From Natronosalvus rutilus (GTDB taxonomy: Archaea > Halobacteriota > Halobacteria > Halobacteriales > Natrialbaceae): 64,000 bases of DNA. Shown here in pieces: positions 22,558 through 51,203 of the stretch (positions are counted from its first letter, which is position 1; every line of letters starts with the position of its first letter). The position numbers were made by a program, and so were the translations under genes. The notes below the pieces were generated by a model that was not told where the DNA came from, ran no database searches, and saw nothing but the letters and a program-made list of their open reading frames with translations. The stretch lies in assembly GCF_024204665.1 (NCBI RefSeq), contig NZ_CP100356.1:186001-250000 (forward strand), read 5' to 3'.

Positions 22558-23745
22558 ATGGGGAACTCTACCGCAGAAGCCGATGTATTCGCGCCTCTGG
22601 TAGAGTGGCTCGACGGCCAGGGATACGAGTGTTTCATCCATGTCCCAGGCTCTCACCGCTCGATCAACGGATACGCTCGACTCTACGAACGGTATCCATC
22701 GCACTCGATCACGATCGGGCCGTACAAACCGGACGTCGTCGGGTTCACCCCCGCAAACCGGGTTTTTGCGATCGAAGTCAAAGGAACGGAGAATCTTCGA
22801 AAGGGACTCGGGCAGGCGCTAAGTTACCAGCGGGGCGTCGACCACGCTTACCTCGCAGCGGACGATACCGTGCTGACGCGCGTTCAAGATATCGCCGTCA
22901 GCAAGGGAATTGGAACGCTTGGCGTAAATCCCCAAACGAGTTCGATCTCACAGGAGTTTCCATCATCAGCCGAAATGAAGGATCTCCTCTACAACACACG
23001 CCACCAACTCGAGAACATGCTCGTTACTACCAACGAGTGCTCACGGCGACTCCCGAACTACGCAGATCCGCTAAATCAATTAATGCCCATCGTCGCGATC
23101 GCCAATCACGATCACACGACGGAGGAGGCGATCGGCGATCTCTGTGAGGACGAATCGTACCCATATCGCAGTGCGTATAAACGGATGATTCGACTCGCAG
23201 AGTACCTTGGGATGATCCGTCTCAAGTCCGGTGAGTACCAACTAACGGAACAAGGTTTGATGGGAGAGATCGTACTTCGGGGATATGATGTCGAGACAAT
23301 TTCTGATCTGAAGGCACTGAAGGGCGGTGGGCAACTTTGGAAGAAACATCCTCCCATCGCAACGTACCTTCGCAATCGGTTCGCGTCCAATCCTGATTTC
23401 CGGACACTTTTCGAAGTACTACTGCGTCACGGCAACGGTGGCATCTCGATTCAAGAACTGTGTGGAACCTTGATAGATAACTACCCAAGTACGTTTATAA
23501 ATATAGTGTACACCGATCACGAAGACGACGAGGGGCCCACACTCATCGAACAGGGCCGCGGTCACGAGATCTACAATAACCCCGAGTATCTGAAGCGGAT
23601 CGTCCACAGCCAGTTCATCTCGAATACCGCCAGCCAGTTCAAGAGCCTCGGCGTGCTTGCGTCGGATTCACCCGTCATTGAGCCCAAATCAGCGTTGAAC
23701 CCGGCGACCGACTACTGGTACCCTCGCGAGTTTCAATTGAAGTGA
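22558..23745 (+). CDS. PD-(D/E)XK nuclease-like protein with winged-helix region (copy 1)
   Basis: 395 residues. The N-terminal ~110 residues form a nuclease-like core: D59 in KPDVVGF, E73-x-K75 in FAIEVKG and Q86 in GQALSYQRG, the motif order of Holliday-junction-resolvase/restriction-type enzymes. The middle has a winged-helix-like stretch (TTEEAIGDLCEDESYPYRSA ... MIRLKSGEYQLTEQG). The C-terminal part (PPIATYLRNRF ... PSTFINIVY) is shared with the next gene. The two genes lie head to tail 125 bp apart and form a paralogous pair convergent with the transglycosylase operon. A role as DNA-cleaving partner is inference. Confidence 0.75.
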   Translation: MGNSTAEADVFAPLVEWLDGQGYECFIHVPGSHRSINGYARLYERYPSHSITIGPYKPDVVGFTPANRVFAIEVKGTENLRKGLGQALSYQRGVDHAYLAADDTVLTRVQDIAVSKGIGTLGVNPQTSSISQEFPSSAEMKDLLYNTRHQLENMLVTTNECSRRLPNYADPLNQLMPIVAIANHDHTTEEAIGDLCEDESYPYRSAYKRMIRLAEYLGMIRLKSGEYQLTEQGLMGEIVLRGYDVETISDLKALKGGGQLWKKHPPIATYLRNRFASNPDFRTLFEVLLRHGNGGISIQELCGTLIDNYPSTFINIVYTDHEDDEGPTLIEQGRGHEIYNNPEYLKRIVHSQFISNTASQFKSLGVLASDSPVIEPKSALNPATDYWYPREFQLK

Positions 23746-23870
23746 TCGTACTCGATTAAACGGTATCGGCGAACTGAAGCACTTTACCAGAAAGAGAGTT
23801 AGCTCGTGTATTGACGGACATCATATAATAGGAAGATTGATCGGTTCAGAATGAAGTCATAGTGTAACAG

Positions 23871-25079
23871 ATGGGACTTTCCGAAGAAGAGGTCTTTCAG
23901 AAGGTCACGGAAGAATTAGAGACTCGAGGATACGAGTTCTTCGTTCACTGTGATTATGATAGTATTCTCTCGAAATTCAGATCGCATACAGAATCCATAT
24001 CCGGAAGATATCCCGATGTTCTTGGATTAGCTCCCGACCGCTCAGTCATTGCGATCGAAGTAAAAGGAAGTAGAGACCTCCGAACTGGAAAAGGACAGGC
24101 GTACGACTACAAAGCGGGAGCAAACTATTCGTATCTCGCAGCTGATTCAGATACATTTGAAGGATATCGTAAGACCGTTCGTGACGATGGCTTAGGCGTT
24201 ATCACGGTCTCCACTGATGGTGTTCAGGATTGGAAAGAACCGCCTGCAATAACGAACAAATCACAACTTTCGGAGATACGAGACCGTCTCGCAGCTCGTA
24301 TTCGAGGTGTCGAACCGATTTCGAAGATAACTGGACTAGACCTCGCCCACCCGATTCACTTCCTCGCACCGGCGATATTCTTGGAGAACATTGATAGCTA
24401 TCAAAAAACGATGGGGTATAACGAATTTGTTACTGAATTTGAACGAGAGTATCTCCTCAACGGGGATGCATCGAAAGCGGCGATCGACGGCGCGACAGTA
24501 CTCGGAATTATCGAATCTGGGTCGACGGTTACACTAACGGACAGGGGGCGAATCGGACTCGTGATTTTAAACAACTACGGCGTCGGTACGTTATCAGAGT
24601 TGACACGGTTGAAAGAAGAGACGTCGAATAGCGGTACTCTGTACGATGTCGCCCCTTTGCTCGCAGTGTGGCTACTTGATCAGTATCGAAAACACCCCGA
24701 TTTTGAAGCGTTATATCGTACGATACAATCGTTCGATCCGGAGGTACCAATACTGCTTACCGAACTCGTAGAACTGTTAATTCGAGACTATCCGAACACT
24801 TTCCTTCAGATGTTTTGCACTGATTCGACCGAATCCTGTGATCAAGCACGAAAACTACTCTTAAAAGGAAACGTAGAACGGATTTACGAAGACGTTGACT
24901 TATTTCGCCAAATAATCCGCCAAAACCTCGTTCAAAATTTCTCCCGGCAACTCCAACATGTCGGACTCCTCTCTAAGCGGACATCGTCGACGACAGTACG
25001 TCTCGACGAATATTATCCCGATGAGTATCCTTGGTATCGTCGATCAACAGTACGAAACGCTCGCCTATTTGACCATTGA
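23871..25079 (+). CDS. PD-(D/E)XK nuclease-like protein with winged-helix region (copy 2)
   Basis: 402 residues, paralogue of the preceding gene. The nuclease-like motifs are D49 in YPDVLGL, E63-x-K65 in IAIEVKG and Q76 in GQAYDYKAG. The later regions (LTDRGRIGLVILNNYGVGTL, PLLAVWLLDQYRKHPDFEAL, YPNTFLQMFCTD) align with copy 1. Codon choice is less GC-rich than copy 1, so the copies are old or of separate origin. It ends 55 bp from the convergent AAA+ gene. Two such subunits could form a heterodimeric nuclease; this has not been demonstrated. Confidence 0.75.
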   Translation: MGLSEEEVFQKVTEELETRGYEFFVHCDYDSILSKFRSHTESISGRYPDVLGLAPDRSVIAIEVKGSRDLRTGKGQAYDYKAGANYSYLAADSDTFEGYRKTVRDDGLGVITVSTDGVQDWKEPPAITNKSQLSEIRDRLAARIRGVEPISKITGLDLAHPIHFLAPAIFLENIDSYQKTMGYNEFVTEFEREYLLNGDASKAAIDGATVLGIIESGSTVTLTDRGRIGLVILNNYGVGTLSELTRLKEETSNSGTLYDVAPLLAVWLLDQYRKHPDFEALYRTIQSFDPEVPILLTELVELLIRDYPNTFLQMFCTDSTESCDQARKLLLKGNVERIYEDVDLFRQIIRQNLVQNFSRQLQHVGLLSKRTSSTTVRLDEYYPDEYPWYRRSTVRNARLFDH

Positions 25080-25133
25080 GTAGACGGGAAATCGAACAGG
25101 TAGTTTCCACAATGTACGGATGTCGACTAACTA

Positions 25134-26291
25134 CTAGAGCGAATCCTGCACGAACTCGTTAGTGATCGTAGTGCGTTGCTCTCTCGAGGCTGTATCGAGC
25201 AACCGACTACAGACTGAGAGCACCTGACGAATATTCCCCTGCGACCGCTGGAGAATCAGGTCGAGCGATTCTTCCGTGAACGGTGAAATGTCCGATGAGT
25301 TAGTGAGCTCCCCCCGTTCTCGCTCGAGGTACCGCTCAACTAGTTCGTACAGGTCCTCGTTCGTTAATGGCCGCAGCGCAACTTCCTGCCCAATGCGCTC
25401 GCTGAACGCGTGGTACTCACTCATCACGTCCTGCCAGACTTCGGGTGCACAGCCGAACAGCATACAAAGTCCGTGACTGTTCTGGTCCATCAGGTGCCGA
25501 ATACTGTTGAGCGTCGATTGCTCGTCTTTCGACGACAACCGTCCAATACTCTCGAATTCGTCGACGAACACGAAGACGGCAGTATACCCCAACTCCAAAA
25601 ACAGGCTCTTCAGGGCCGTGAACGCTCTGACACCCATCGTATCGTCGTCCAAGGCAGTATGAATTTCCATCTCCTTGCGCTGCTCGTATCGAATACCCTC
25701 TGCGGTCAGCCACTGCCAGGCGTAGAGGTTCGTGTCCTCGTAGACCATGTGGACGATTGCCCTCGCAAAATCTGCGAACCGTGTTGTATCGCTCAACCGC
25801 TTGATCGCCGTCGGGACGATCTCCGAGAGGAGTACGTCGCCGTCGTTGATGAGCGACCGCATCGTGTTCGCGCTCATTGGGTTCCGATCCGTCACATCGC
25901 ACGTGATTTTCGCGAGGTACTGGTATGCGATGTCCTGTATCTGGGTGAATCCGAGATCGTAGACGAATTCGTGGTAGATGTCGATGAACCCTTCTCCAGG
26001 TTGTGCGACATATCCGACAATCGCATCCTCTCGATCCTGAACAAGCGATCGGGTGTATTTGAGCGTGTGCGACTTTCCGTTTCCGTACTTCCCGGTGATG
26101 ACGAGATGCTTCGACTTTCCCGTCGACAGTGTCGTAGACACCGTCGAACTGATCTCATTAGTTGCGTGTTCTTGGCCGCAGTAGAGTTCTGGATTCTCTG
26201 CGGGAACTGGACTGTACGGGAATGGGTTCGCCTCGAGGCCGAATTTCGAGTAGTCTTGCTGCTGGTCGGTAATATTGAATGCTTCACTCAT
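25134..26291 (-). CDS. AAA+ ATPase of the transglycosylase operon
   Basis: 385 residues. It opens FGLEANPFPYSPVPAENPEL, has Walker A GKYGNGKS (67-74), Walker B VFVFVDEFESIG, and a sensor-like SHGLCMLFGCAPEVW. The C-terminal section (ALRPLTNEDLYELVERYLER ... RSQGNIRQVLSVC) resembles the lid of ExeA/Orc-like AAA+ proteins. It is the last gene of a three-gene operon, overlapping the previous gene by 4 bp (ATGA). By position it is likely to work with the DpdA-like enzyme, perhaps loading or remodelling DNA; the biochemical role is unknown. Confidence 0.8.
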   Translation of the reverse strand: MSEAFNITDQQQDYSKFGLEANPFPYSPVPAENPELYCGQEHATNEISSTVSTTLSTGKSKHLVITGKYGNGKSHTLKYTRSLVQDREDAIVGYVAQPGEGFIDIYHEFVYDLGFTQIQDIAYQYLAKITCDVTDRNPMSANTMRSLINDGDVLLSEIVPTAIKRLSDTTRFADFARAIVHMVYEDTNLYAWQWLTAEGIRYEQRKEMEIHTALDDDTMGVRAFTALKSLFLELGYTAVFVFVDEFESIGRLSSKDEQSTLNSIRHLMDQNSHGLCMLFGCAPEVWQDVMSEYHAFSERIGQEVALRPLTNEDLYELVERYLERERGELTNSSDISPFTEESLDLILQRSQGNIRQVLSVCSRLLDTASREQRTTITNEFVQDSL

Positions 26292-27187
26292 GGGTTTGTG
26301 TCTGGTGTGAACGTGATGTCGCGGTCGTACACCGCGAGGTAGTAGTACTGCTTGTCGAACTGTTCGAGCCCGGCCATTACCTGTTGGGTCGATTGTGACG
26401 TCGAAACCAACGATTCGCCGTCAGCAAGTTCGATTCGTTTGATCCCCAATACAGAATTTTTGGCGGTCGTATCTAACGGTGCACCCGAGAGTTCGAGTTT
26501 GCCAACGTTCTCGCTGCACAGTGTGGCCAGTCCTTGATCGAACGCGTCTCGAGTACACCCGAGTCGCTCACAAGTTCGTTCACGGAGCTTGGGGATTGAG
26601 AGGTACCGCTGGCGGAGGTTGACACCGGCGGTTTCCTCTAGTTCGTCGTAGAGCTCGAGAAGGATGTATTGGAAGTTCTTTGGCACGCTGTTTCGAGAGG
26701 CAACATAGTAGTCGCCAGTAAATGCGTTCCGCTGGACTCCTCCCAGTCGCTCTCCCCAATCGCCGACAACTTCGATTCCCGTTTGATTGAACGAATACAG
26801 CGAGAATTCATATTCGGCTTTGAGGAACTCGAGTAACGAATCAGTGTCCGTTGGCCCACGTTCAGCGAGTGCGTCGAGAAACGCTCCGTAGTGTGGGCTA
26901 CGAACGGCAAGAATGTCGTCGGCTTCCGACCACGTTTCGGATCGGATCGCCTCTAAGAATTGTTCACCGATCGGAGTCGTCGAGTAGGTTGGCTCCTCCT
27001 GGTCGCCATCTTCGCGGAGGAGAGCAATTCGCGTCGCCTCGAGAATCGTCTCTCGTGCTCGTCTATGCGTTATGGAGAGCGTTTCTTCGATGTCATCGGT
27101 TGTTCTTCGAGTTCCTTCACACAGGTGTGTGAGTTCAGTGAGGCGGGCCAGTGTAACGGGACGGACCGTCGCACGTTCGGATGTCAC
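26288..27187 (-). CDS. Winged-helix protein between dpdA-like and AAA+ genes
   Basis: 299 residues beginning at a GTG that overlaps the dpdA stop by 4 bp. The N-terminal third is a helix-turn-helix/winged-helix (TTDDIEETLSITHRRARETI ... TPIGEQFLEAI). The remainder has no recognised domain. In layout it resembles the 287-residue winged-helix gene at 36084-36947, which also accompanies an ATPase, so the two may be functional analogues. Resemblance to DpdG-type proteins of bacterial dpd islands is possible but not established from sequence alone. Confidence 0.65.
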   Translation of the reverse strand: MTSERATVRPVTLARLTELTHLCEGTRRTTDDIEETLSITHRRARETILEATRIALLREDGDQEEPTYSTTPIGEQFLEAIRSETWSEADDILAVRSPHYGAFLDALAERGPTDTDSLLEFLKAEYEFSLYSFNQTGIEVVGDWGERLGGVQRNAFTGDYYVASRNSVPKNFQYILLELYDELEETAGVNLRQRYLSIPKLRERTCERLGCTRDAFDQGLATLCSENVGKLELSGAPLDTTAKNSVLGIKRIELADGESLVSTSQSTQQVMAGLEQFDKQYYYLAVYDRDITFTPDTNP

Positions 27188-28218
27188 GCTAACCTCCGTA
27201 CCTGCTGTTTAGCGGTCCTGTAGGCTCGTTGTGTGACCTCGTTTCCCCGAAACCGAAGATCCAGGTAGTCCTCGATGTCTCTTCCGGACGACGATACGTA
27301 CCGAAACCGACGGAGTTCCGTCGTTAACGCCCACAGGTTGTGTTGCGTGAGTGCATTACGGTCCGCTCTGATCTCCTCAAGAGTCCGCTCACCACAGATT
27401 GGGCACGAGCACGGGAGGTACTCGAGGTCGTCGATATTCCACAGTTCTTCACCGCCGAATCCCGGTATCAGATAGTTCCGGTTTCCAGCGCTCCGAATGA
27501 ACGCCGAGGAATCGAAACTATCGACACCCAGATAGAGTAACAGGGGTTGGTAGACGAGGCCGCCGAGTCCGTATACGTGCAAGTGTTTGTCTGTTGCCGT
27601 TCGCGCTGCCAGTACCAACTTCGTGACTTTCGTATAATCTGTCCTAACGGGGACAAGACTTCCCAGAGCATACCCGTCGAAATTCCCTCGCTTCTCGAGG
27701 TATCGGATACTGTTTCGAATCGTCTCTGGATCGTACCCGTGGACGCTCGCGAAGAGTGACGCCTCTCCGTTGTGTTGTTCACTCGCCGCCAGTGCGAAGT
27801 TGATACTCTGATCGATCCGTCGCTGGTTTTCTGTCGATCGATTTTGCCTCGAGAGAGGGATATCGACCGTCCCAATAATGTCCGCCTTGAGTTGTCGTTG
27901 CGTCGCAAGGGTTTCTTCGGGAGTCGTATCCAGGTCTTCGTTTGTGAAATCGAACCCTCCGCTATCAGCGTAAACGATCGTGTGTTCCGGGACGTTCATC
28001 TCTTCTCGAAGCGATACACCGTTGGTCAACCGATCCCACATCGGATCTCTATTCCTAATCGCTCGGGCGTTGATCATCGCTGTCGGTAGATCTGGAATAG
28101 AATCGATGTACTGCGGGGTATTGTCGCTCGATCGTTTTCCCAGATTTCGGACCGGGAATAAAATTGGAGTTTGCAACTCCCCATGTGGGAGATCAAGCGT
28201 TTGTTGTCGAAACAACAT
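27184..28218 (-). CDS. dpdA: DpdA-type guanine transglycosylase (TGT superfamily)
   Basis: 344 residues from the ATG at 28218. TGT hallmarks: D85 in ADSGGFDF (substrate aspartate), the FDGYALGSLVP strand corresponding to GYAIGGLAVGE, GVDSFDSSAF with the nucleophile aspartate (D233 or D236), and a zinc site C270-x-C272-x2-C275 ... H293. It lacks the C-terminal tRNA-binding PUA region of the archaeosine enzyme and is shorter than bacterial Tgt. In bacterial dpd islands this family swaps preQ0 for guanine in DNA. Here it leads an operon of three overlapping genes, and preQ0 genes lie at 49-51 kb. DNA as substrate is inference from context and size. Confidence 0.8.
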   Translation of the reverse strand: MLFRQQTLDLPHGELQTPILFPVRNLGKRSSDNTPQYIDSIPDLPTAMINARAIRNRDPMWDRLTNGVSLREEMNVPEHTIVYADSGGFDFTNEDLDTTPEETLATQRQLKADIIGTVDIPLSRQNRSTENQRRIDQSINFALAASEQHNGEASLFASVHGYDPETIRNSIRYLEKRGNFDGYALGSLVPVRTDYTKVTKLVLAARTATDKHLHVYGLGGLVYQPLLLYLGVDSFDSSAFIRSAGNRNYLIPGFGGEELWNIDDLEYLPCSCPICGERTLEEIRADRNALTQHNLWALTTELRRFRYVSSSGRDIEDYLDLRFRGNEVTQRAYRTAKQQVRRLA

Positions 28219-28360
28219 CCTCAACTTCGACTAAGCTGTTCCGTCAGATAGGTAATAGCCCTCTATTACGAATAACTCAACTGATAATGAGAATATTCAA
28301 AATTTGCCAAATTGCACTAGTCCAATAAGTGGAGTAGAAGGCGTTTCAACGGAAAACATG

Positions 28361-28377
28361 ATATATGAGTCATATAT
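28361..28377. promoter_or_regulatory. 17-bp palindrome, candidate operator
   Basis: ATATATGAGTCATATAT has perfect 8-bp arms around one central base. It lies about 140 bp upstream of dpdA and 70 bp beyond the 3' end of the DUF7344-type regulator gene. Confidence 0.35.
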
Positions 28378-28445
28378 TTGTTATAATCTCGGTGAGGTTC
28401 GTATGATATGCTTTCATTAGAATAGAACGGTAGTTTCAACTCCTT

Positions 28446-28823
28446 TCAATTAACGGACTCAAGTAACCCGCTGGAAAACATTCTTCCAATCGCTACAAGA
28501 CAAGCGTGGTAGGAAGTTTTTCGAGTTACCATCACCGTTTTTCGATCAGCGTCGTATTCAAGTATCCCCTTGGTCGCCAATTTTGGTAGATGAACTTGAA
28601 TAAGGCTGTTATACGCTGATTCGTATTCTGAAGTACTGATTTCTCGAGGAGGCCGCTCAAGTTCGACGGCCCTAATAATACGGGCAATTTGACGGACGTC
28701 GACCGTAGTACCACAATCGAACAGCGAGAGGTATGTAATCGTCAAGAGTCGACGTTGATTTCCTAACAGACGATACGTATCCGACACCGGTTGAGTCGCT
28801 TCATCTCTCTTCTCTGTTGTCAT
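28446..28823 (-). CDS. DUF7344-type winged-helix regulator
   Basis: 125 residues: DTYRLLGNQRRLLTITYLSL is the typical opening of haloarchaeal DUF7344 proteins, followed by VDVRQIARIIRAVELERPPR and the wing KLATKGILEYDADRKTVMVT. These are ArsR-like DNA-binding proteins. It lies between the two transglycosylase units on the same strand and is the obvious candidate to regulate them. The leader carries a T-run plus C/G hairpin (28838-28868) like those upstream of the TFB and tnpB-fusion genes. Confidence 0.75.
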   Translation of the reverse strand: MTTEKRDEATQPVSDTYRLLGNQRRLLTITYLSLFDCGTTVDVRQIARIIRAVELERPPREISTSEYESAYNSLIQVHLPKLATKGILEYDADRKTVMVTRKTSYHACLVAIGRMFSSGLLESVN

Positions 28824-28920
28824 TATCGTTCTGAGGGTGACCCCTCACCCATCTTTGGGGGAGAAAAAATACCATGGAGCGAACTGGTAATTACATCAAA
28901 GCGACTGTAAATTACTCACG

Positions 28921-29622
28921 TCAAAATTCACTCAGGTCTCTTTGCGAGGTCGGGCTACCAAGACACGCCGCTTTTACGTCATCGGATGATGTGAACTCGG
29001 CCCCCAAAGCGAGATTATCGGCGAAATTCTTCAGATAGGCTCCTTTTAACGCGACAACAATTGAACCCTGTTCTTTCGCTTGTTTGGTGCGAGCAGGGAT
29101 CGAGACAACATTGTCGAATTGCTCCGCGAGTTCTTCTTGGTTGAAAGCCACTGCCAGTGTTTCGGGTGGCAGTGAAGACACCACGTCGGGCATGTCTAAC
29201 GCTCGGTAGTAGTCGGTTCCAAGAGGGAAGAATATGAGATCGTACGTCAAAGCAGTCGCCAGTTCTCGGACTCGACGGGAAATCCCGAGAGTCTCGGAGC
29301 GGGATTCAATCTCCTTCGCCGTCATCTCCGCGAACGTGACGTTATACGGGGGGAGTTCTTCGTCCTCTTCGACGACTCCGAACCCAGCGCTGATGAAGTA
29401 CCGATTGATGGCGTGTCCGTTGGCACGGAGCGAGTCGATCGCATCACCGATGTACTGCTGTTGACGACCGGTGTAGAGTTTCCGTGCTGGGATGCTGGCT
29501 ACTCCTTCACGAGCACGGAGTGAGTCGAGACTCGACTCATCAAGTTCCGGCGCATCGTATACTGCACTATCGTTCGGATATGATTTACTGTTCGAACACT
29601 GATCGACGATGAGGATTTTCAT
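28921..29622 (-). CDS. DUF6884-type protein paired with large transglycosylase
   Basis: 233 residues. It begins MKILIVDQCSNSKSYPNDS and has IPARKLYTGRQQQYIGDAID and YFISAGFGVV, the arrangement of the DUF6884 family (normally CSxxK ... PAxxLYxS ... SAKHG). It starts 2 bp after the large transglycosylase stop, so the two are translationally linked. The family is often found beside nucleic-acid modification genes; its reaction is not known. A second, truncated relative is at 15252-15685. Confidence 0.7.
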   Translation of the reverse strand: MKILIVDQCSNSKSYPNDSAVYDAPELDESSLDSLRAREGVASIPARKLYTGRQQQYIGDAIDSLRANGHAINRYFISAGFGVVEEDEELPPYNVTFAEMTAKEIESRSETLGISRRVRELATALTYDLIFFPLGTDYYRALDMPDVVSSLPPETLAVAFNQEELAEQFDNVVSIPARTKQAKEQGSIVVALKGAYLKNFADNLALGAEFTSSDDVKAACLGSPTSQRDLSEF

Positions 29623-29624
29623 GA

Positions 29625-31829
29625 CTAAAACTCCATTAACCCTTTCTGCACCATGAACTCAGGCAGAAACTCGCTGTCGTATCCAAGCTGGTCGAGAACG
29701 GCCGCTCGGAACTCCGACGGCACTTGGTACGACGCTATCGTGCATCCTTGTTGTTCAATCCGTTCAACGACGTCAGGGTGAATAGTCTTGTCAGGGTCGT
29801 ACAGGAACACTTTCTGATATCGTGCACAGAACTCGCCGACAGACGCCGCCATCTCGGTCGGATCAAGCGAAACCGTCGTCGGTGGTTCCGACCACCACTC
29901 GTGAATTCCTTCAGCGCTTATGACTCCGACCTCCGCTACAGGAAGATCGTGGACATCCGACCAGAAGTCCGTCTGCTCGGTGAGGAAGTATCCCTCCACA
30001 GAACTCCACGACGTCAGGGAGTCGGAGGCAGGCATCGCGACGAGAGTCTTTGGAAGCGCTTCCCGAAATTGGTCATAAAACCGTTTCGTGTTGTGAAACC
30101 CACGGCGCCGGTTTCGGTTATTCGCCCGGAAGATCGCCACTTCGATGCCATGCTCTCTGCAGATCCGACAGTCACACTCTTTCCACGGCTCCTCTCGAAG
30201 GAGTCGCTTGTACTCCTCGAGTAATCGCTCGTCGCCTATCCACGACGCGTAATCTTCCACGAGTAGCCAAATCTGATCGAACGTGCCGGTGTCGCCCGAG
30301 TATTTTTCGCGCTGTTCAATGGTCTCTGCCATTCTGGGGAAGGTTCCGTCGAACTGCTCTCGAGCGGTATCGATCAATGATTGGTATTTGTCGAAGTCTA
30401 GTGGTGACTTGGGATTGTCGTCTCTAAGCAACTTGATTACGGCATTACGGAGAGGGCGACTGAAACTCGCCCGGAGTTCGCGACCGTACTCGTAGTCGTC
30501 CCGGAAATGCTCCTCGATGTCACGGAGAAGGCGTTGATCGTACGCGTCGTCGTGTCTATGCGTTTTCAAGTATGGCGCCAGTCCGTCCAGTGCGCGTTCT
30601 GCGTCTGTGACCCACGCTCGGATGGCCTTAGAAATCAATTCCCCCTCGTCGAAGGCGCGAAGTGAATGAAGGAGTTCCTGACCACGCAGGGCAATTTGAA
30701 TCCGCTTTTCGAGTGAGTCTCGGTTCGATCCAAATCGAACACGAAGTGCATCGTATCGTCGTTCGCTATCGAGGTGGTAGTTGTCGCCACCGGTCCAGGC
30801 TGACCGAAGCATACTTGCGCTGTCGAAGCTCGACATTCCGGTCTGTCCGATTGCATCGAATGCATCCGTTTTGGCAAACCCGAATACGTGTGTGTCAACC
30901 CTCGTTTTTCGAGTACGTTCGTGCTCCTTGACTGCGTTTCCGACGCCTGTGACGATATCACGGATTCTGGCAGCGTTACTTCCTGCGACGCCACCGATTC
31001 CAATGTACTGGTATCCACGTTCAAGCACCTGTTCAGCAGCACGGGCGTACGATATTGGATCCCATCCCTGAATAGCGACCATCAGACGGAATGAGTAGTC
31101 GTTAGCGTCGTACAGTTCCTTCATCTCCCTGGCGTTGTTGAGGGTCAATTGATACCGAAACTCTGTGTCGTCCTCACGGTAAACAGCACGAGGATCAGTA
31201 CAGAGCCGCTCGAGGACTGCGACTGGATCACCTTCGAAGTCCTCCGGCTCGAACTGGTTTACTGAAGGGGCATCGCAAATCGTTGAATCGTAATCCTCGA
31301 CATATGCAGGCCACTCCGACGGCCATTCATCGATCATCACATCGACCTCATCAGTCAACTCTTTGGGGAGTTCACTGGGTGTGAATTCTGCATCAGCGAA
31401 CGCACGTTTGTCGAGATATAGACGGGTCTCGTGACCGGAGCCAAGTACGAGATGATCGATCGTCACCCCAACTGTAACATCGAGGTTCTCGTAAAACGCC
31501 AACATTTCGTCGTTGTCATAGGGTGGGAATGGGAGCGTTTTGTATCCCCAGGCGCCGCAGTCGCTAATCGTCGGAAGCCAATTGGGGATATTGAGATTGG
31601 ACTGTTCGTCGTAAACACCGTGGGACGTAAGCCGATCGAACTTCGTCGCGCTCTCTTCGACCTGTTCACGTGAGATTAGAACCCCGTCGATCGGGGTGGT
31701 CTCATAGTCAAAGATGTCCCAAATATACTGCAACTGGCGCTCGTCTTTTCCGAGTTCCGAATGCTCGTCGTGCTCAAAATCGTAGTGAGCGTCGACGTTG
31801 TCATCCCATTCAGGAACGTAAAACCTCAC
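29625..31829 (-). CDS. Large TGT-superfamily protein (second DpdA-like enzyme)
   Basis: 734 residues, GTG start. The TGT barrel elements are spread out: D90 in ISDCGAWGYK (equivalent of DSGGF), VAIQGWDP and YQYIGIGGVAG (glycine-rich recognition loop), D336 in GMSSFDSASMLR (nucleophile equivalent), and zinc ligands C552-x-C554-x2-C557 ... H579. A 180-residue insertion precedes the GG loop and ~145 residues follow the zinc site with no recognised fold. Keeping all catalytic and zinc positions suggests an active enzyme that differs from the 344-residue DpdA-like protein. It is followed at once by the DUF6884 gene. Confidence 0.75.
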   Translation of the reverse strand: MRFYVPEWDDNVDAHYDFEHDEHSELGKDERQLQYIWDIFDYETTPIDGVLISREQVEESATKFDRLTSHGVYDEQSNLNIPNWLPTISDCGAWGYKTLPFPPYDNDEMLAFYENLDVTVGVTIDHLVLGSGHETRLYLDKRAFADAEFTPSELPKELTDEVDVMIDEWPSEWPAYVEDYDSTICDAPSVNQFEPEDFEGDPVAVLERLCTDPRAVYREDDTEFRYQLTLNNAREMKELYDANDYSFRLMVAIQGWDPISYARAAEQVLERGYQYIGIGGVAGSNAARIRDIVTGVGNAVKEHERTRKTRVDTHVFGFAKTDAFDAIGQTGMSSFDSASMLRSAWTGGDNYHLDSERRYDALRVRFGSNRDSLEKRIQIALRGQELLHSLRAFDEGELISKAIRAWVTDAERALDGLAPYLKTHRHDDAYDQRLLRDIEEHFRDDYEYGRELRASFSRPLRNAVIKLLRDDNPKSPLDFDKYQSLIDTAREQFDGTFPRMAETIEQREKYSGDTGTFDQIWLLVEDYASWIGDERLLEEYKRLLREEPWKECDCRICREHGIEVAIFRANNRNRRRGFHNTKRFYDQFREALPKTLVAMPASDSLTSWSSVEGYFLTEQTDFWSDVHDLPVAEVGVISAEGIHEWWSEPPTTVSLDPTEMAASVGEFCARYQKVFLYDPDKTIHPDVVERIEQQGCTIASYQVPSEFRAAVLDQLGYDSEFLPEFMVQKGLMEF

Positions 31830-38796: not shown

Positions 38797-41700
38797 TTAT
38801 TGTTGCGCTTCCAATAGAGCGAGGAGCATCTTCCGGTGGAGGAGGTCGTTTTTAAGGTAGAAACCGGGCGTCCGTTCTAAGAGTAGACACTGGTTACAGA
38901 ATTGATTACATTCATCACAGTTGCCAACTTCTCGCACCCGCTTTTCGAGTTCGTTCGATTCAATGATCGCCTGTGAGACTTGCCACGAGATGCCGTTTCC
39001 ACCCTCTCGCCCGTCGGTCACGTAGAAATCCAGCGACGAATCTGTCTTCACGGCCTTCACATCAAAGTCCCCAAGGTCACATTGGGCGATTACCGCGATC
39101 GTTTTAGCGAATGCTTGTTCCAGACTCACCATGGCTTGTGACCACGATGCCGTGGGTTCTGTACTGGCAAATTGTTGGTATCGTTCTTCGATCGGTTCCA
39201 AATCAAACTCCAATTTGATCCCATTCGTCCGCATTTGTTGACCTACTGGTGCATACTGCTCAGAACTTGACTCTTCAATCAGGTCGTCAAGATCCATATC
39301 GTCGAAATTCGCCTCGTCTTCATTTTCAACATCGATAACTCCCTGTGACTCGACCAATTGCAGGTCACTCCCGCGATTGTGGGCGCGTTCGAAGGCTGGC
39401 ACAAACGAAAGCGTTTCAAACTGCGATGAGATCAGCGAACAGTCCAACCCGAATAGCGTCGCCTCCGTGACTTCACGATCCGCGGTCGATCGAATCTCCT
39501 CGAGATACGTGGTCACGATGGGATACGTGCGATAGTCTTGTTCGAAAGGAGCGGCCGACCGGCACTGCACGGATCCGATTCGATGGACGGCTGTACGTTC
39601 CAACTCCTCTCCACACAGCGGACATATCCCCCGGCTTTCTTTGTATGCTCCGTATGGGCGCTCACATTCTTCGTTTGTGCAGAGCCCGACTCTCGTTAAT
39701 CGTTCTCGGGCTTTGACGTCATCGACTATGTATTTCGTGCCCAAATAGACAACCTCACCTCCCCGATCGTTTTCTGGACCTGGAAACATCTCGAAGAGAC
39801 GGCCACTCCCCTCGAATTGGATATCAGCTTGTCTGCTGCTTCGGTAATTGACTGGGAATTGGCCTCCAAAGGATCGGTAGTTCGCGAGATAGCCTAATTC
39901 CTTCAACCAGAGATCGAGTCGATTGAGATTGGAGGAGAGGGTTTCCGCGGATTTTCCCGATACATCTAATCCCTCCATCTCGCCAAACGTCCGTTCACCA
40001 CGCTGCTTCATGCTGTATCGACTGTCGGTGCTGAACACTTCGTCAAAAATGGGGCTTGCTTCTGGACCGAACGCTTCCACAACCCAGTCTTTTACATCGG
40101 GGCGTTCTTCCTTGATGTATCTGCGAAGCGTAACGAGTCGTTTCAGAACGTTAGTGCTGAAATTTCTTGGGCTGCTCGTCGATTCCGTCAGTTGATACAC
40201 TTTATCGAGGACTGACTTGCCCCCTTGATTCCGCGCCAGATATCCAACTGCTTCTGTGACGATTTGCCCAGCGAGAAGTTCGTCGAACTCAACTGGATTC
40301 GGAACTCTCACCGGATCATACGAGGAGAAAAAAGCATCCAGGTTCGCGAAGTAATGCGTATCTACTGGGTTCGATGATCGTACTGCGGTTGTAACGAGTG
40401 ACGCACTCCCCTGAGATCGGCCAGTCCGACCGCTTCGCTGTACGTAGTTCGTCAGTGTAGGCGGGATTCCGACCTGTGTCACCGTATCGAGCGTTCCGAT
40501 GTCGACACCCAATTCCATCGTTGGGGTCGCACTGACGATGTTTATCTCTGGATCCGGTTGCCGAAATCCCTCTTCGATTGATCCTCTGAGTGCAGCTGGC
40601 ATATCACCCTTGTGTTGACCGACGACGACCGGCTCCAATTCCTCGTTTTCCGTGAATGGTGAGGAAATATCGTGCCCCCAGTGATCGACCGCGTAGTCCC
40701 ATCCAGTATCAATATCGGCATATCCTTTTCCGACGTATTCTCCCTCCCTAACCTCGAACCGGTCGTATACATCGGTCGCCTGCCGGCACTTGGGACAGTT
40801 GATACCGATGTCGGTATCCATCTGCTTTGCAGGCATCGCCGTATAACAGTTTAGACAGTACGCGACGGAAGGTACCAGACGAAGTCGGGACTCGTCGTTC
40901 TGCAACTCTCGCTTGAACACACCACTTCCAATCTCCCCCTTGAAAACGTCAACCTGGTCTAAAACCGCCTGCTGTTTTTCAAGATACGCCTTCGTCGTCT
41001 CCACGGGCGCATTTCCGGATTGATTTTGGAGTTCTTCGTGAACCTCGTCGTCGGTTCGGGCGCGAATAGCGTTCACTTCATTGAGGTCGTCCAATATCCT
41101 CGGGAGAGACTGCTGAACAAATTCTTCTTCGAATCGGTAGTTCCGGTGGATTCTCGATTCCAGTCGTTCGAACGACCATCCTTGAATCTTTCTCCCGTCT
41201 CGAGTAAATTTGTATCCTGGATCCTGCGCGAAGGTACGGTAGACCACGTGAGCAAGCGCCAGTTCCCTACCCGAATACGACTGGAAGATCGTCTCCGGTG
41301 TCACGAGTGCTGCATTTAGAAGATGGTTACAATTGTGAAGTGACGCGTTATTCCGAATCGAACTCAACAAGTCATTCAAATAATCCTCTACATTGGAACC
41401 ATCTGGTGCATTCGAGATGAGGGGTTCGTAGTAGACCTCTCGAAGTTCGTCACGGATATCGTAGAACAACTGGGTTGTCTCCTTGGTACCCTTGTTCTCC
41501 ACGAGGTGTTTCACGTACAGCGTCTCCGCCATCAGGAGGTACTCCTGGTCTCGGATGTTCCTTGCAACGCTTTCGGAGGTACTTCGCGAGTCCGAGAATA
41601 CAAGCGTTTTCTTTGAGGGTGCTAACCGGCAAAGTTCGGTAAGCATGAACGTGAGCAGCGTCGACGTTGGGACGTTAATGTCCTGCGTGTTATGCGTTTT

Positions 41701-43548
41701 TTCACAACCCGGACAGAGGGATGCAGTTGGATGCTCGAGTGGTCGACCCCCATCTTCCTCATTTTCAACGACGTAGGGATAGTGGCATTCTCGACAGAAT
41801 TCCAGTTCCGGCAGATTCGAGTGACATGACGGGCACGCCTTCTGTCTTCTAACAGCACTACAATCTCGACACCAATATGCATTCGACGGCGGTTGTAAGA
41901 AGACGTGGTACTTATCGGTCAATAATCCGGCTAACCGGCCGAACAACAGCAGGGTATTGAGTACTAACTCAGGATCCTGCGACTCGTCCAACTCCGACCG
42001 AACATCTGCAAGTAACCCATCGTATCGTCTAAATCTGACCTCTCCAGTGTCCCCTTCGAGTTTCGACGCAAGTTCGGCAACCTCTGGGACGTGTCGTTCG
42101 ATATGCTGGCGCCATCGGGCCGTGAGACCATTTGAATCCAATAGTGTCTCCGTCACCAGATCCAGTGTCTCTTGATTCTCGATTACGTCCAGCCCTGTTT
42201 CGGCCTGTGGGTACGACTCTTTTAAGGAGTCCACTTCCTCTAAAATGGGGCTGACGAGCCACGATCGAACCTCTGATGGGATCGATATAGCGTTCGATCG
42301 TATCGTCAGAAGATTGACCGCCGCCAGCGTTGCCCGTGCGCTGGCCATTTTAGGAAACTTTGCCTCAAACGCATTCACTGTGTACTCTCCTTTAGAGACG
42401 ACGTAGAGCGTCGCCACGATTTCGTCTAACGTGCATGGATGAATTTTAGTAAAGTCAGCCGTTCCACCTGATGGAAGCGGCTCGGGAGTGAATCCAACCG
42501 AGTTGATTTCTTCCATTGGGGTTCTTGTCAATTTGCTAGCAAGCTCGGGAGGGTTCTTAACGGTTGCAGATACCATTGAGATTTGCGGATCGCTATCCTC
42601 GTAAAAGTGCTTCAATCGTTGTGATAGAAGTGAAATTGCGGCACCTTTGATCCCACTCCATACGTGTGCCTCATCGTATACAATGTGCTGAAGCGGGTGC
42701 TCTCCTGGATTTTCGCCGATGATGTTCCGCGAGTCACGGCGGTCGTTCACGTAGAGGAAATCGAGCGCTTCTGGATTCGTAATCAGAATATCGACACTCT
42801 GACTCTGGTTATCTGCTCGGATGCCATTCCGAGTAACTCTTATCCACGAATACTCCTCGGTATCGGTACCGACTCGGTAGTCGTCGAACACACGGAGTTT
42901 TTCCTTGGTTCGTGGACAGACAAGCCCACGAATCGGGGATCCTGGCTCAACTTCGTTTGGTTGATCCCCAACAGTGTTGTCGGTATCACCATCCCAGATT
43001 CCAATTTTGATCTTCTCTCCGGCCGGCCGATCTCGATTGACTGCATCAAGATACTTGATAAATCTGTTCAGTTGGTCGACCTCAAGCGTCTTCATTGGAT
43101 AGATGATGATGCCTTTGAGCCCATCTTTGTCGATTTGAATACAATCGTTGAGTAATGGGATAAAGAACGATTCCGTCTTCCCGGTCGCTGTTGGTACCGC
43201 GAGGATATTGTCATTCTCGTCTCCTTCGATCGCCTTGATCATCTCTGCCTGGTGTTGATATAGCGGGAGTGTGGGATCGCCATCGAATAGAACATTAGCG
43301 ACCGCATTGATAGCCGATGGATCGTAGTTCAACTCGGATAGGAATGCTTCAGCGGATTGAGTATGTGATTTCGGGGTTCGAACGTACTCGACGTATGGCC
43401 CTTTCTGCTCAACCAGTTGATCGTCGACAAAGGCTTTTGCATTTCCGAACTGGTCGAATTGGTTCAGCTTTGTGAGAGAGCGGTTCCACCAGATAATTTC
43501 GTTTGCACGGTCAAGGGCGCCGTCTAACGTTTGACGAGGTGAATCCAT
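38797..43548 (-). CDS. DEAH-box helicase with cysteine clusters and DUF1998-like end (DpdJ/DrmA-like)
   Basis: 1583 residues. Helicase motifs: Q-rich LYQHQAEMI, motif I VPTATGKTES (118-127), Ia IIIYPMKTLEVDQLNRF, DEAH box IVYDEAHVWSG, SAT (SMVSAT), then motifs V/VI SATPTMELGVDIGTLD and NYVQRSGRTGRSQG. There are several zinc clusters: CRDC...CPSC...CREC, CLNC...CPKC, CTNEEC...CPLC. The C-terminus has CDECNQFCNQCLLLERTPGF, typical of DUF1998/MrfA-type helicases. Such helicases are motor subunits in DISARM (DrmA) and in dpd islands (DpdJ). It leads a two-gene transcript with the 310-residue protein. Confidence 0.85.
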   Translation of the reverse strand: MDSPRQTLDGALDRANEIIWWNRSLTKLNQFDQFGNAKAFVDDQLVEQKGPYVEYVRTPKSHTQSAEAFLSELNYDPSAINAVANVLFDGDPTLPLYQHQAEMIKAIEGDENDNILAVPTATGKTESFFIPLLNDCIQIDKDGLKGIIIYPMKTLEVDQLNRFIKYLDAVNRDRPAGEKIKIGIWDGDTDNTVGDQPNEVEPGSPIRGLVCPRTKEKLRVFDDYRVGTDTEEYSWIRVTRNGIRADNQSQSVDILITNPEALDFLYVNDRRDSRNIIGENPGEHPLQHIVYDEAHVWSGIKGAAISLLSQRLKHFYEDSDPQISMVSATVKNPPELASKLTRTPMEEINSVGFTPEPLPSGGTADFTKIHPCTLDEIVATLYVVSKGEYTVNAFEAKFPKMASARATLAAVNLLTIRSNAISIPSEVRSWLVSPILEEVDSLKESYPQAETGLDVIENQETLDLVTETLLDSNGLTARWRQHIERHVPEVAELASKLEGDTGEVRFRRYDGLLADVRSELDESQDPELVLNTLLLFGRLAGLLTDKYHVFLQPPSNAYWCRDCSAVRRQKACPSCHSNLPELEFCRECHYPYVVENEEDGGRPLEHPTASLCPGCEKTHNTQDINVPTSTLLTFMLTELCRLAPSKKTLVFSDSRSTSESVARNIRDQEYLLMAETLYVKHLVENKGTKETTQLFYDIRDELREVYYEPLISNAPDGSNVEDYLNDLLSSIRNNASLHNCNHLLNAALVTPETIFQSYSGRELALAHVVYRTFAQDPGYKFTRDGRKIQGWSFERLESRIHRNYRFEEEFVQQSLPRILDDLNEVNAIRARTDDEVHEELQNQSGNAPVETTKAYLEKQQAVLDQVDVFKGEIGSGVFKRELQNDESRLRLVPSVAYCLNCYTAMPAKQMDTDIGINCPKCRQATDVYDRFEVREGEYVGKGYADIDTGWDYAVDHWGHDISSPFTENEELEPVVVGQHKGDMPAALRGSIEEGFRQPDPEINIVSATPTMELGVDIGTLDTVTQVGIPPTLTNYVQRSGRTGRSQGSASLVTTAVRSSNPVDTHYFANLDAFFSSYDPVRVPNPVEFDELLAGQIVTEAVGYLARNQGGKSVLDKVYQLTESTSSPRNFSTNVLKRLVTLRRYIKEERPDVKDWVVEAFGPEASPIFDEVFSTDSRYSMKQRGERTFGEMEGLDVSGKSAETLSSNLNRLDLWLKELGYLANYRSFGGQFPVNYRSSRQADIQFEGSGRLFEMFPGPENDRGGEVVYLGTKYIVDDVKARERLTRVGLCTNEECERPYGAYKESRGICPLCGEELERTAVHRIGSVQCRSAAPFEQDYRTYPIVTTYLEEIRSTADREVTEATLFGLDCSLISSQFETLSFVPAFERAHNRGSDLQLVESQGVIDVENEDEANFDDMDLDDLIEESSSEQYAPVGQQMRTNGIKLEFDLEPIEERYQQFASTEPTASWSQAMVSLEQAFAKTIAVIAQCDLGDFDVKAVKTDSSLDFYVTDGREGGNGISWQVSQAIIESNELEKRVREVGNCDECNQFCNQCLLLERTPGFYLKNDLLHRKMLLALLEAQQ

Positions 43549-44739: not shown

Positions 44740-44803
44740 ATCCCTATGCCATACCCCTACATCGTGATGGATGTTGGCAAGTGGTTTTCTATGCTTGTAA
44801 CAA

Positions 44804-46198: not shown

Positions 46199-46203
46199 CC
46201 TGT

Positions 46204-49094: not shown

Positions 49095-49793
49095 CTAATC
49101 TGATGAGAAACTAGGTCGTTCAGCGTACGTGATTGGATCCCTCGAGCCAGCATTACGGAACGCCTCAAGTCGTAAAGCACAGGAATCACACGTCCCACAC
49201 GCTGGTTCGTCGTCCCGATAACACGACCACGTGAGTTCGTACGGGACGTCGAGCTCAAGACCGCGTTCGGCGATATTTGTTTTCGACCACTTGACATATG
49301 GTGCGACGAGGTCGATTTCTGTCTCGGGTTTTGTCCCGACGTCAATGACCTTTTGAAAGGCATCAAAGAATGCTGGCCGACAATCCGGATACCCCGCGAA
49401 ATCTTCCGAGTGAGCACCCATAAACACTGCTGCGCAGTCGTTTGCTTCGGCATACGAGATAGCCATGGCTACCAGATTCGCGTTCCGAAACGGGACGTAC
49501 GACGTAGGAATTTCATCGCTTTTGAGGTCAGTGTCTGTAACTTCCATGTTCTCGTCAGTAAGGCTTGACGCCCCAATCTTCGAGAGATGGCCCGTCTCAA
49601 TATGGAGGAAGTCCGCTGCGTCAACTTCATTCGCCAATGCGTTTGCACACTCGTATTCTTTGGTCTCGGTTCGCTGTCCGTATGACGTATGCAAGAAATA
49701 TGGCTCGTATCCACGGGCAATCGCTTCGTAGACTGCGGTTGCGCTGTCCATACCCCCGGAGACCAGAATCACTGCACGTTTGTTGTTACTCAT
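49095..49793 (-). CDS. queC: 7-cyano-7-deazaguanine synthase QueC
   Basis: 232 residues. The ATP-pyrophosphatase loop SGGMDS is at 12-17; FLHTSYGQRTETKE and TSYVPFRNANLVAMAISYAE are conserved QueC segments; the zinc site is C-x8-C-x2-C-x2-C (SCYRDDEPACGTCDSC). It converts 7-carboxy-7-deazaguanine to preQ0 with ATP and ammonia, last step of the pathway. It overlaps the folE stub by 8 bp. PreQ0 feeds archaeosine in tRNA in all haloarchaea and DNA modification in dpd islands. Confidence 0.97.
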   Translation of the reverse strand: MSNNKRAVILVSGGMDSATAVYEAIARGYEPYFLHTSYGQRTETKEYECANALANEVDAADFLHIETGHLSKIGASSLTDENMEVTDTDLKSDEIPTSYVPFRNANLVAMAISYAEANDCAAVFMGAHSEDFAGYPDCRPAFFDAFQKVIDVGTKPETEIDLVAPYVKWSKTNIAERGLELDVPYELTWSCYRDDEPACGTCDSCALRLEAFRNAGSRDPITYAERPSFSSD

Positions 49794-49938
49794 GAGTATC
49801 AACTGCCGAACGCCCTACTCGATCAGGGTTCTCTCCCAGCGCCTCAAGTAGCATACGCGTGGCGCGTTGGGCTTTCTGCCGGGTAATACCGGATGACTCG
49901 CTGTTCTCTGTATTCGGCTGATGCTGTTGTCTCGTCAT
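49786..49938 (-). pseudogene. folE: GTP cyclohydrolase I (FolE) N-terminal stub
   Basis: ATG at 49938 overlaps the queE stop by 4 bp and opens a 50-codon frame: MTRQQHQPNTENSESSGITR followed by QKAQRATRMLLEALGENPDR, the amphipathic opening helix and GENPDR turn of FolE. Where EGLxxTPxR should follow, the frame runs into VGRSAVDTHE and stops inside the queC start. About 75 per cent of a normal FolE is missing, including all catalytic zinc ligands. It looks like an internal deletion that joined the folE start to queC. Confidence 0.6.
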
Positions 49939-50711
49939 GTTCCTGGTTCGTCGTTCCACAAATCGACGTGCAATCGGGGCGTGTAGCGATAGCCACGTTC
50001 AATCGCCAACTCAGCCACGTCGTTTCGTTTCTCGTCCAATTCTTCTCGCGTCATCCCTTCCGGCATCAGTAACACATCGTCGTTGGCAACGCTCGTGTCG
50101 GCCTCCTCTCGGATTTGGTCGAACAGTTCGTCAATTTCGGACAGATCATCCGGGTCGGTAACGACGAACTTCAATTGGCTATCGTACTCGTCGATCAAGT
50201 TTGCGAGCGCCTCAAGATTGATGCGCCGTTTTTCGTGGCGCATCTCCCATTCGCCGTCTCCTTTCGGATCACGGGTTGGTATGGGCGTACTGCTCGAGAG
50301 TTTCGGGCTAATACTCGCCAAATCAATCGCTGCATCTCGATAGACGGTGCCGTTGGTCTCGACAGTTGTGTGATAGCCGTACTCCGCTAATTCATCTAAG
50401 AGGCGAACGGATTGCTCGTGGATCATCGGCTCTCCGCCAGTCAAAACCACGTGGTCGGTATTTTCGTAGCCACGGACTTCGTCGACGATATCGTCAATCG
50501 AAAGCCACGCTCCGGTCGGTTCCCATGAGGTGTGATAGGAGTCACAGAACCAACACCTGAGATTGCAGCCGGATGTCCTGATAAATACTGAAGGGACACC
50601 GGCGAGTTTACCCTCTCCCTGTAACGAGTAGAAGAGTTCGTTTATCGGCAGACCCTCTCCCTCGACGTCGTCATCAGAAGCGAGCCCTGAAACATCACTT
50701 GCAACCGGCAT
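49935..50711 (-). CDS. queE: 7-carboxy-7-deazaguanine synthase QueE (radical SAM)
   Basis: 258 residues. Radical SAM cluster C-x3-C-x2-C in CNLRCWFCDS, preceded by LFYSLQGEGKLAGVPSVFIR, and TGGEP motif in VVLTGGEPMIHEQ. The enzyme contracts 6-carboxytetrahydropterin to 7-carboxy-7-deazaguanine. The first ~20 residues are an acidic extension. Its start overlaps the queD stop by one base and its stop overlaps the folE stub, so the four genes are one transcript. Confidence 0.97.
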   Translation of the reverse strand: MPVASDVSGLASDDDVEGEGLPINELFYSLQGEGKLAGVPSVFIRTSGCNLRCWFCDSYHTSWEPTGAWLSIDDIVDEVRGYENTDHVVLTGGEPMIHEQSVRLLDELAEYGYHTTVETNGTVYRDAAIDLASISPKLSSSTPIPTRDPKGDGEWEMRHEKRRINLEALANLIDEYDSQLKFVVTDPDDLSEIDELFDQIREEADTSVANDDVLLMPEGMTREELDEKRNDVAELAIERGYRYTPRLHVDLWNDEPGT

Positions 50712-51172
50712 CAGTACGTAGCGCAGAGCTCACTCGTCTCTCGAACGGTCACCGAAACTTCCGATACATTATCGGGGAACGTCTCGAGCATCCGTTCCTC
50801 GAGGAGAACCGCCATCACTTCGGCCGTTGGGGGGTGCTCGAGTATAATAAGCGAATCAGCGTCTCCTGATGCTTCAAACGCCTCGATTAGAGGATCTCCC
50901 TTTTGGACGATAAATCGATGGTCCCAGTGGTCGATGACGTCAGTCACGGCTCCTTTATCTACAACCCAGCCCTCATCGGAGAGCTGACCGGTGATTTCAA
51001 CGGTGATTTCGTAGTTGTGACCATGTGGCCGTGCACATTTACCATCGTGATGTAGAATTCGATGACCCGTGCTGATTCGTATCGGTCTATCTTCGCCGAT
51101 TAGAAGAGTTCTCTCACCAGATGCGTGAAGAGGAAGGCCATCTGGATCCTCTTGAGATATGCTATGAGTCAT
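50711..51172 (-). CDS. queD: 6-carboxytetrahydropterin synthase QueD
   Basis: About 153 residues from MTHSISQEDPDG. Active-site elements: zinc ligand H in ISTGHRIL, catalytic C with HGH in GKCARPHGHNYEI, and DHWDHRFIVQKGD with EHPPTAEV. It makes 6-carboxytetrahydropterin from dihydroneopterin triphosphate, first committed que step. The ATG at 51172 was preferred over 51196 because a TATA-like CTTATATG on the minus strand lies about 27 bp upstream of it. First gene of the queD-queE-(folE)-queC transcript. Confidence 0.95.
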   Translation of the reverse strand: MTHSISQEDPDGLPLHASGERTLLIGEDRPIRISTGHRILHHDGKCARPHGHNYEITVEITGQLSDEGWVVDKGAVTDVIDHWDHRFIVQKGDPLIEAFEASGDADSLIILEHPPTAEVMAVLLEERMLETFPDNVSEVSVTVRETSELCATY

Positions 51173-51193
51173 ACTTGGAGCATACTTGGAGAG

Positions 51194-51203
51194 CATATAA
51201 GCT
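51194..51203 (-). promoter_or_regulatory. queD: TATA box of the que operon
   Basis: AGCTTATATG on the minus strand. Between it and the ATG at 51172 lies a tandem CTCCAAGTATG repeat that could be an operator or chance. Confidence 0.35.

Follow-up and report, generated by a model that had tools for sequence, protein, structure and literature searches.

The Dpd systems of bacteria (dpdA-K; PMC11888242), of which an Enterobacter plasmid (L071) provides a canonical example, carry DpdA, a protein that in phages and bacteria inserts 7-cyano-7-deazaguanine (preQ0) into DNA (PMC6884629). A survey of these systems with GATOR-GC, in which DUF6884 was equated with dpdC and both dpdA and dpdB were required, reported them from eight phyla, all of them bacterial (PMC11888242). 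The BRIGADE systems, described only from halophilic archaea, are hybrids of Dpd and ARMADA (Bell et al. 2025, preprint, bioRxiv 2025.09.15.676423, PMC12458937). According to the main text of that preprint, they combine a predicted 7-deazaguanine cluster with usually two YprA helicases and a phospholipase D (PLD) or occasionally PD-(D/E)xK nuclease, Type I possessing one ARMADA-like and one Dpd-branch helicase and Type II two near-identical ARMADA-like helicases. Inserts of BrxA-like and beta-barrel/MarR type in the helicase are a further mark of BRIGADE; the main text names no DpdA, DpdH or TGT (tRNA-guanine transglycosylase). Finally, the BRC system with TGT/GNAT/HerA/PglZ (PMC12839542) joins a BREX-related ATPase to a TGT and has no DpdB.

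Here, we describe a 29-kb island of this general kind in a haloarchaeal genome of four contigs and 4.31 Mb. The window, that is, the whole stretch of 64,000 bp that was analysed, comprises bases 186,001-250,000 of the 339,965-bp contig C2, and all positions below are window coordinates. A preliminary description of this DNA had proposed an archaeal Dpd-like modification/restriction island with two transglycosylases. Family hidden Markov models (HMMs), membership of the DpdA clade, synteny, and homology to DpdG/H and to DpdJ-type helicases lend good support to that proposal, although several of its individual assignments do not hold. We consider it likely, from gene content and comparison, that the island serves this haloarchaeon as a DNA modification-restriction system of the Dpd/BRIGADE kind, which would tell self from non-self and is put together from two halves that can be exchanged.

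Like canonical bacterial Dpd, the window contains DpdA, DpdC, preQ0 genes, the G-H-I gene order and a DpdJ-related helicase; unlike it, the window lacks DpdB, D, E, F and K, has an added module of a second TGT, a 299-aa protein and a BrxC/D-like ATPase, and carries a helicase closest to DruE. Searches against the Dpd families matched DpdA and DpdC directly and DpdG and DpdH by profile comparison; among dpdD-K, a J-related gene was also found and DpdI is represented by position only, while DpdD, DpdE, DpdF and DpdK were not found in the window. Because the bacterial survey required dpdA together with dpdB, it would have missed this island. With BRIGADE, as far as the main text of the preprint describes it, the island shares a halophilic archaeal host, Dpd homologues accompanying a 7-deazaguanine cluster, and a helicase of the ARMADA/Druantia-like YprA type. 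The genome differs in having a single helicase with an MrfA Zn-binding (MZB) domain rather than the usual two, and the window in having no PLD nuclease or DpdK, two open reading frames (ORFs) with PD..EVKG motifs lying beside the island. HerA/FtsK, PglZ and DUF4007 are the defining components of BRC, in which its authors detected no DpdC (PMC12839542), whereas the window has both DpdA and DpdC. The component set, which the preliminary description had noted to differ in composition from bacterial Dpd, is not unique to the window, being a variant of BRIGADE as set out in the 2025 preprint. The haloarchaeal loci considered here are evidently BRIGADE systems, a kind already known; the window is new as a chimeric BRIGADE variant and as a lead on base exchange by two TGTs.

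The DpdA module and its second transglycosylase

The ORFs of the 29-kb span are intact and lie where the preliminary description had placed them, including those for the DUF6884 protein, QueD-QueE-QueC and the 1583-aa DEAH helicase. From 43.5 kb downward, the minus strand encodes the helicase, p310, a 287-aa protein, a 970-aa ATPase and a 230-aa protein, interrupted after p310 by p241 on the opposite strand, and then continues with the following genes, the last of which is approached convergently by the two PD..EVKG paralogues.

29625..31829, minus strand: DpdA, DNA-guanine transglycosylase, 734 aa (NCBIfam, PADLOC, PDB 7UI4, tree, motifs)
28921..29622, minus strand: DpdC-like (DUF6884) protein, 233 aa (PADLOC DpdC, fusions to DpdA)
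28446..28823, minus strand: DUF7344 protein, 125 aa (Pfam DUF7344, 4e-18)
27184..28224, minus strand: TGT2, short TGT-family protein, 346 aa (Pfam TGT, 1e-30; own clade; co-occurrence with DpdA)
26288..27187, minus strand: 299-aa protein (constant position between TGT2 and the ATPase in haloarchaeal loci)
25134..26291, minus strand: BrxC/BrxD-like P-loop ATPase, 385 aa (Walker A GKYGNGKS, Pfam BrxC_BrxD, PADLOC BrxD, synteny)

The 734-aa protein had been listed as a second TGT relative. It does belong to the TGT family, but family comparisons identify it as DpdA itself: it scores 274.7 bits against NCBIfam DpdA (NF041059; cut-off 200 bits) and 4.5e-73 against PADLOC DpdA, and its sole PDB match is 7UI4, named "DNA-guanine transglycosylase" (2.9e-38), whose segments DCGA, DS and CxCxxC...RNRRRGFHN align with it. 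Both catalytic aspartates, D90 (DCGAW) and D336 (FDSAS), are kept, and the zinc site is complete, with CxCxxC at 552-557 and the FHN histidine. In a tree of 83 proteins, haloarchaeal and bacterial DpdA sequences form a single clade (100/99) apart from ArcTGT and Tgt; relative to bacterial DpdA, the window protein has two inserts and a C-terminal extension. A viral origin was considered and rejected, viral contigs yielding only 6 relatives of DpdA, whose identity to the Paenibacillus query was 33-40%.

The adjacent DUF6884 ORF matches PADLOC DpdC (5.2e-13), which corrects the earlier statement that no DpdC was recognised. In many haloarchaea DpdC forms the C-terminal part of a fusion with DpdA (open frames of ~970 aa), and in cyanobacteria and Bacillota the N-terminal part; fusions in both orders are strong evidence of joint function. 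For the DpdC-like protein, the predicted reaction is hydration of the nitrile of DNA-borne preQ0 to the amide (ADG). That DNA rather than tRNA would be the substrate follows from what is known of the DpdA family.

The protein that had been taken for DpdA is instead TGT2. Its catalytic and zinc residues are intact as reported (D87, D238 and the zinc cysteines), but it reaches only 35 bits against NCBIfam DpdA; its best NCBIfam match is archaeal TgtA (136.9 bits, under the cut-off of 350), and its best PDB match is an archaeal tRNA TGT. These scores and the tree, in which TGT2 forms a separate haloarchaeal clade (100/100) on the ArcTGT side, lead us to reject its assignment as DpdA, and by the same comparisons TGT2 is neither DpdA nor the host ArcTGT. 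Among 292 haloarchaeal genomes, DpdA occurs in 39 and a TGT2 orthologue in 39, with 38 common to both (p=2e-45), an association exceeding chance.

The 385-aa ATPase matches Pfam BrxC_BrxD (3.5e-16) and PADLOC BrxD (3.5e-12) and scores 45.8 bits against the NCBIfam BrxD equivalog, under its cut-off of 350. The 299-aa protein has no informative match in Pfam, PADLOC or NCBIfam. Of the two winged-helix and ATPase operons previously described, small-protein and ATPase genes are indeed present, but the winged-helix label of this protein is unconfirmed by any library. In about 24 haloarchaeal loci examined gene by gene, the order TGT2, 299-aa protein, BrxC/D-like ATPase is held beside DpdA (with or without DpdC), and many of these loci are plasmid-borne; a Haloferax alexandrinus strain with plasmid pBNX82-4 is among the DpdA-positive haloarchaea. 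DpdA, DpdC, TGT2, the 299-aa protein and the ATPase are thus a conserved haloarchaeal module. Homologues of the DUF7344 protein lie near the modules of several relatives, and it is possibly a local regulator.

Among the individual loci, DpdA and TGT2 are separated by an EVE-domain gene in one of Haloarcula (L112). The most divergent haloarchaeal type A locus (G131; L111, L091) has the TGT2 module, a 563-aa DpdA and queDEC, together with a protein with a PglZ C-terminal match and a helicase resembling that of the window (4e-125).

The restriction cassette and the exchange of halves

38797..43548, minus strand: DEAH helicase, 1583 aa, YprA/DruE/DpdJ type with MZB domain (PADLOC, Pfam MZB)
37846..38778, minus strand: p310, 310 aa, constant cassette member (hhalign to the first gene of type-1 modules)
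36084..36947, minus strand: DpdG-like protein, 287 aa (hhalign)
33170..36082, minus strand: DpdH-like ATPase, 970 aa (Walker A GNVGTGKS; hhalign; weak PADLOC DpdH, 7e-4)
32491..33183, minus strand: DpdI-position protein, 230 aa (hhalign to the haloarchaeal I-position family)
22558..23745, plus strand: putative PD-(D/E)XK nuclease A, 395 aa (motifs PDVVGF..EVKG)
23871..25079, plus strand: putative PD-(D/E)XK nuclease B, 402 aa, paralogue of A (motifs PDVLGL..EVKG..QAYDY)

The helicase, which matches PADLOC DruE (5e-46) and DpdJ (1e-21), is the sole MZB-domain protein of the genome. The 287/970/230-aa operon had been read as a mere winged-helix and ATPase set; profile-profile comparison (hhalign, 198 family pairs), in which matches above 50% were almost confined to syntenic positions, shows it to be DpdG/H/I-like. 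The 287-aa protein aligns with the G protein of type-1 haloarchaeal loci (98.1%, 1e-13) and with bacterial DpdG (80.9%, 1e-5), the 970-aa ATPase with its DpdH counterpart in related haloarchaeal loci (100%, 3e-82) and with bacterial DpdH across 442 columns (98.5%, 4e-15), and the 230-aa protein with the haloarchaeal I-position family (90%, 2e-6). Furthermore, p310 aligns with the first gene of type-1 haloarchaeal modules (96.3%, 1.5e-9). Of 22 further loci, 21 keep the five-gene cassette helicase-p310-G-H-I whole and 20 of the 22 have an extra TGT no more than 20 kb away, and every one of the 22 genomes with the DpdH-like ATPase has at least three TGT matches against the usual two (p=2e-14, kinship ignored), which again is more than chance. 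On the opposite strand within the cassette, p241 (37099-37824) looks like two tandem repeats of ~70 aa, and homologues lie near cassettes in three other genomes (G194, G098, G178).

The two halves of the island have different relatives. Identity between the window and Natronorubrum aibiense is 66-82% for the modification genes and 20-28% for the restriction genes, a contrast demonstrating, at the level of sequence, that modification and restriction halves have been exchanged between lineages. Elsewhere, the window's synthesis module is paired with two ~1830-aa helicases, as in BRIGADE Type II, and its cassette stands beside a DpdJ/DpdK pair, as in Type I; this mapping of the two haloarchaeal groups onto Types I and II would follow from helicase composition as the preprint's main text gives it. 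In those loci the cassette is accompanied by a different pair of TGTs, a GHKL-type ATPase and a short DUF6884 protein, and in most cases also by a DpdJ helicase and DpdK, the TGT set normally linked to it being TGTL/TGTs/ATP519. By these comparisons the window is the DpdA module of one haloarchaeal type joined to the cassette of the other. Both window halves are also present in a genome of another genus (G104), on separate contigs.

The paired PD-(D/E)XK proteins of the preliminary description are present as two ORFs with PD..EVKG motifs. DpdA is present in all 6 genomes that have a nuclease A homologue at least 60% identical (p=3e-5, window genome excluded), and the nuclease B family is enriched in DpdA-positive genomes (11/35, p=0.002).

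The preQ0 genes and neighbouring defence genes

50711..51196, minus strand: QueD, 6-carboxytetrahydropterin synthase (Pfam PTPS, 8e-21; NCBIfam QueD under cut-off)
49935..50711, minus strand: QueE, 7-carboxy-7-deazaguanine synthase (NCBIfam QueE, 6e-30, under cut-off)
49095..49802, minus strand: QueC, preQ0 synthase (NCBIfam QueC, over cut-off)

The QueC of this operon is the sole full QueC found in a search of the genome, and a GCYH-1 family gene on contig C1 is a candidate for the first step of preQ0 synthesis. Host ArcTGT and ArcS-like genes also lie on C1, away from the island, indicating that the host has dedicated enzymes for tRNA archaeosine; queDEC must supply that pathway as well, provided that the host makes its own preQ0. 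About half of the haloarchaeal type A loci carry queD/queE/(folE)/queC, and one has a predicted preQ0 transporter. Congeneric que loci align over the operon alone, the loci compared being short.

Between the cassette and queDEC lies an EVE-AAA (McrB-like) and McrC-like pair (44804-48423), probably a modification-dependent (Type IV) restriction system. The pair exists as described but was wrongly included in the island, since its homologues do not recur in related loci. A DUF262-type protein (52235-54370) with strong PADLOC matches to HEC-06/Orf5 and SspE is probably another defence gene; G176, G252 and L069 likewise have DUF262 genes close to DpdA modules. At the island edge, the ORF at 20536-22092 reads like a TnpB-family (IS200/IS605-type) protein.

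Proposed working of the island and alternative explanations

In the working we propose, the modification half (25-32 kb) would mark host DNA and the restriction half (32-43.5 kb) would act on DNA without the mark. GTP would be converted to preQ0 by the GCYH-1 family enzyme and then QueD, QueE and QueC; DpdA would swap preQ0 for guanine in DNA; and DpdC would convert the inserted nitrile to the amide. TGT2, the 299-aa partner and the BrxC/D-like ATPase would stand in for DpdB beside DpdA, probably by selecting the target site or opening it. The DpdG/H/I-like set and p310 would sense unmarked DNA, the YprA-type helicase would unwind it, and the PD-(D/E)XK-type proteins would probably cut it in place of the PLD nuclease DpdK.

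Several observations weigh against this scheme. As the preliminary description had noted for this protein and for DpdK in the window, DpdB (a DGQHR protein) is absent, with no match in the whole genome. The queDEC operon lies 17 kb from DpdA with the McrBC pair between, so that its link to the island is unproven and it may equally serve tRNA. Synthesis of preQ0 is patchy within the window's genus, a QueC match being absent in 3 of its 8 genomes (G045, G175, G251; the window's genome counted among the 8). Neither PD..EVKG ORF has a Pfam domain, PD-(D/E)XK being a motif reading, and the 230-aa protein has no direct hhalign match above 30% to bacterial DpdI.

The place of TGT2 was considered in 79 fetched DpdA loci, one genome per species. 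A second TGT was present in 27 and DpdB in 18, both in 0 (P=1.6e-4, uncorrected), and 34 had neither; in the 48 loci with full flanks, the counts were 21, 11 and 0 (P=6e-4). A strict exclusion is nevertheless rejected, since independent pairs on the DpdA tree gave no significant result and a DGQHR protein is present in two haloarchaeal loci (G274, G162). A second TGT accompanies DpdA in DpdB-less loci of both Archaea and Bacteria, an observation that is possibly new. The bacterial examples, Paenibacillus pART37 (L114) and cyanobacterial plasmids (L067/L068), resemble the window in having DpdA with a DpdC domain, a second short TGT and, in some, preQ0 genes; Paenibacillus also has DpdH/J/K and retains a large restriction set. 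They differ in that their second TGTs belong to other clades and their partners are helicases or a dpdH-J-K-D-E-F set. In the 83-protein tree, second TGTs of Archaea and Bacteria fall in at least three separate clades, which, together with the lack of any locus with both, suggests that a second TGT replaces DpdB. We therefore put forward, tentatively and as an idea that may well prove wrong, that a second TGT, recruited at least three times from different lineages, has replaced the DpdB ATPase as the obligate partner of DpdA, giving a two-TGT, perhaps heterodimeric, DNA base exchange in Archaea and several bacterial phyla. Such an enzyme would be reminiscent of the eukaryotic QTRT1/QTRT2 pair.

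Other DpdA contexts were also seen. Three archaeal loci (L249, L251, L252; Lokiarchaeota, Thorarchaeota and another archaeal metagenome-assembled genome) have DpdA and a DpdC-like gene with neither TGT2 nor DpdB, and Dpd-type modification may extend to Asgard archaea. In a third bacterial context (L219, L221, L222, L223, L257), DpdA is followed by genes of ~400, ~600, ~600 and ~770 aa, and no TGT2, DpdB or DpdH was detected.

The retention in TGT2 of both catalytic aspartates and the zinc ligands, unlike a purely structural subunit, would suit a second, independent modifier with its own specificity or product, so that DNA would bear two marks. Such an arrangement is compatible with the rest of the proposed working, but the near-obligate co-occurrence with DpdA suggests joint action and no second tailoring gene was seen, and we regard it as rather unlikely. 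We think it distinctly unlikely that the DpdA module, though it marks DNA, lacks a restriction half of its own, the neighbouring helicase cassette being a separate defence system that happened to land there: all 22 genomes with the cassette ATPase carry extra TGTs, the cassette proteins are DpdG/H-like, the only extra TGTs in the host genome are the island's own, and G104 has the same combination, though on separate contigs. Such an origin would nonetheless fit the separate histories of cassette and synthesis module, and the absence from the window of DpdK and of the TGTL/TGTs/ATP519 set to which the cassette is normally tied.

An action of one or both TGTs on tRNA or another RNA, by which the island would alter translation or defend via RNA, draws on the tRNA TGT matches of TGT2 and its position on the ArcTGT side of the tree. 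It is made very improbable by the placement of DpdA inside the DNA-acting DpdA clade, the separate host ArcTGT/ArcS-like genes, and partner genes that resemble a DNA-type helicase, ATPase and nuclease. Least probable of these explanations is a decayed or inactive remnant; p241 on the opposite strand within the cassette, the lack of DpdK and the single YprA-type helicase where two are usual could be read in this way, but no ORF is broken, the starts and stops of neighbouring genes overlap, and the catalytic motifs are complete. The sequence establishes which genes these are and that they are linked; that the island serves in defence, that TGT2 would aid DpdA and that the paired PD-(D/E)XK-type proteins would be the cutters is inferred.

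These results tie archaeal DNA modification of the Dpd type to a definite set of genes, consisting of DpdA, DpdC, TGT2, its partner and the ATPase, within systems whose modification and restriction halves have swapped between lineages. The working of DpdB-less systems thereby becomes a two-gene question. Additionally, this class of host enzyme could explain the 7-deazaguanine in halovirus HVTV-1, which has no DpdA of its own and for which a host DpdA has been suggested (PMC6884629).

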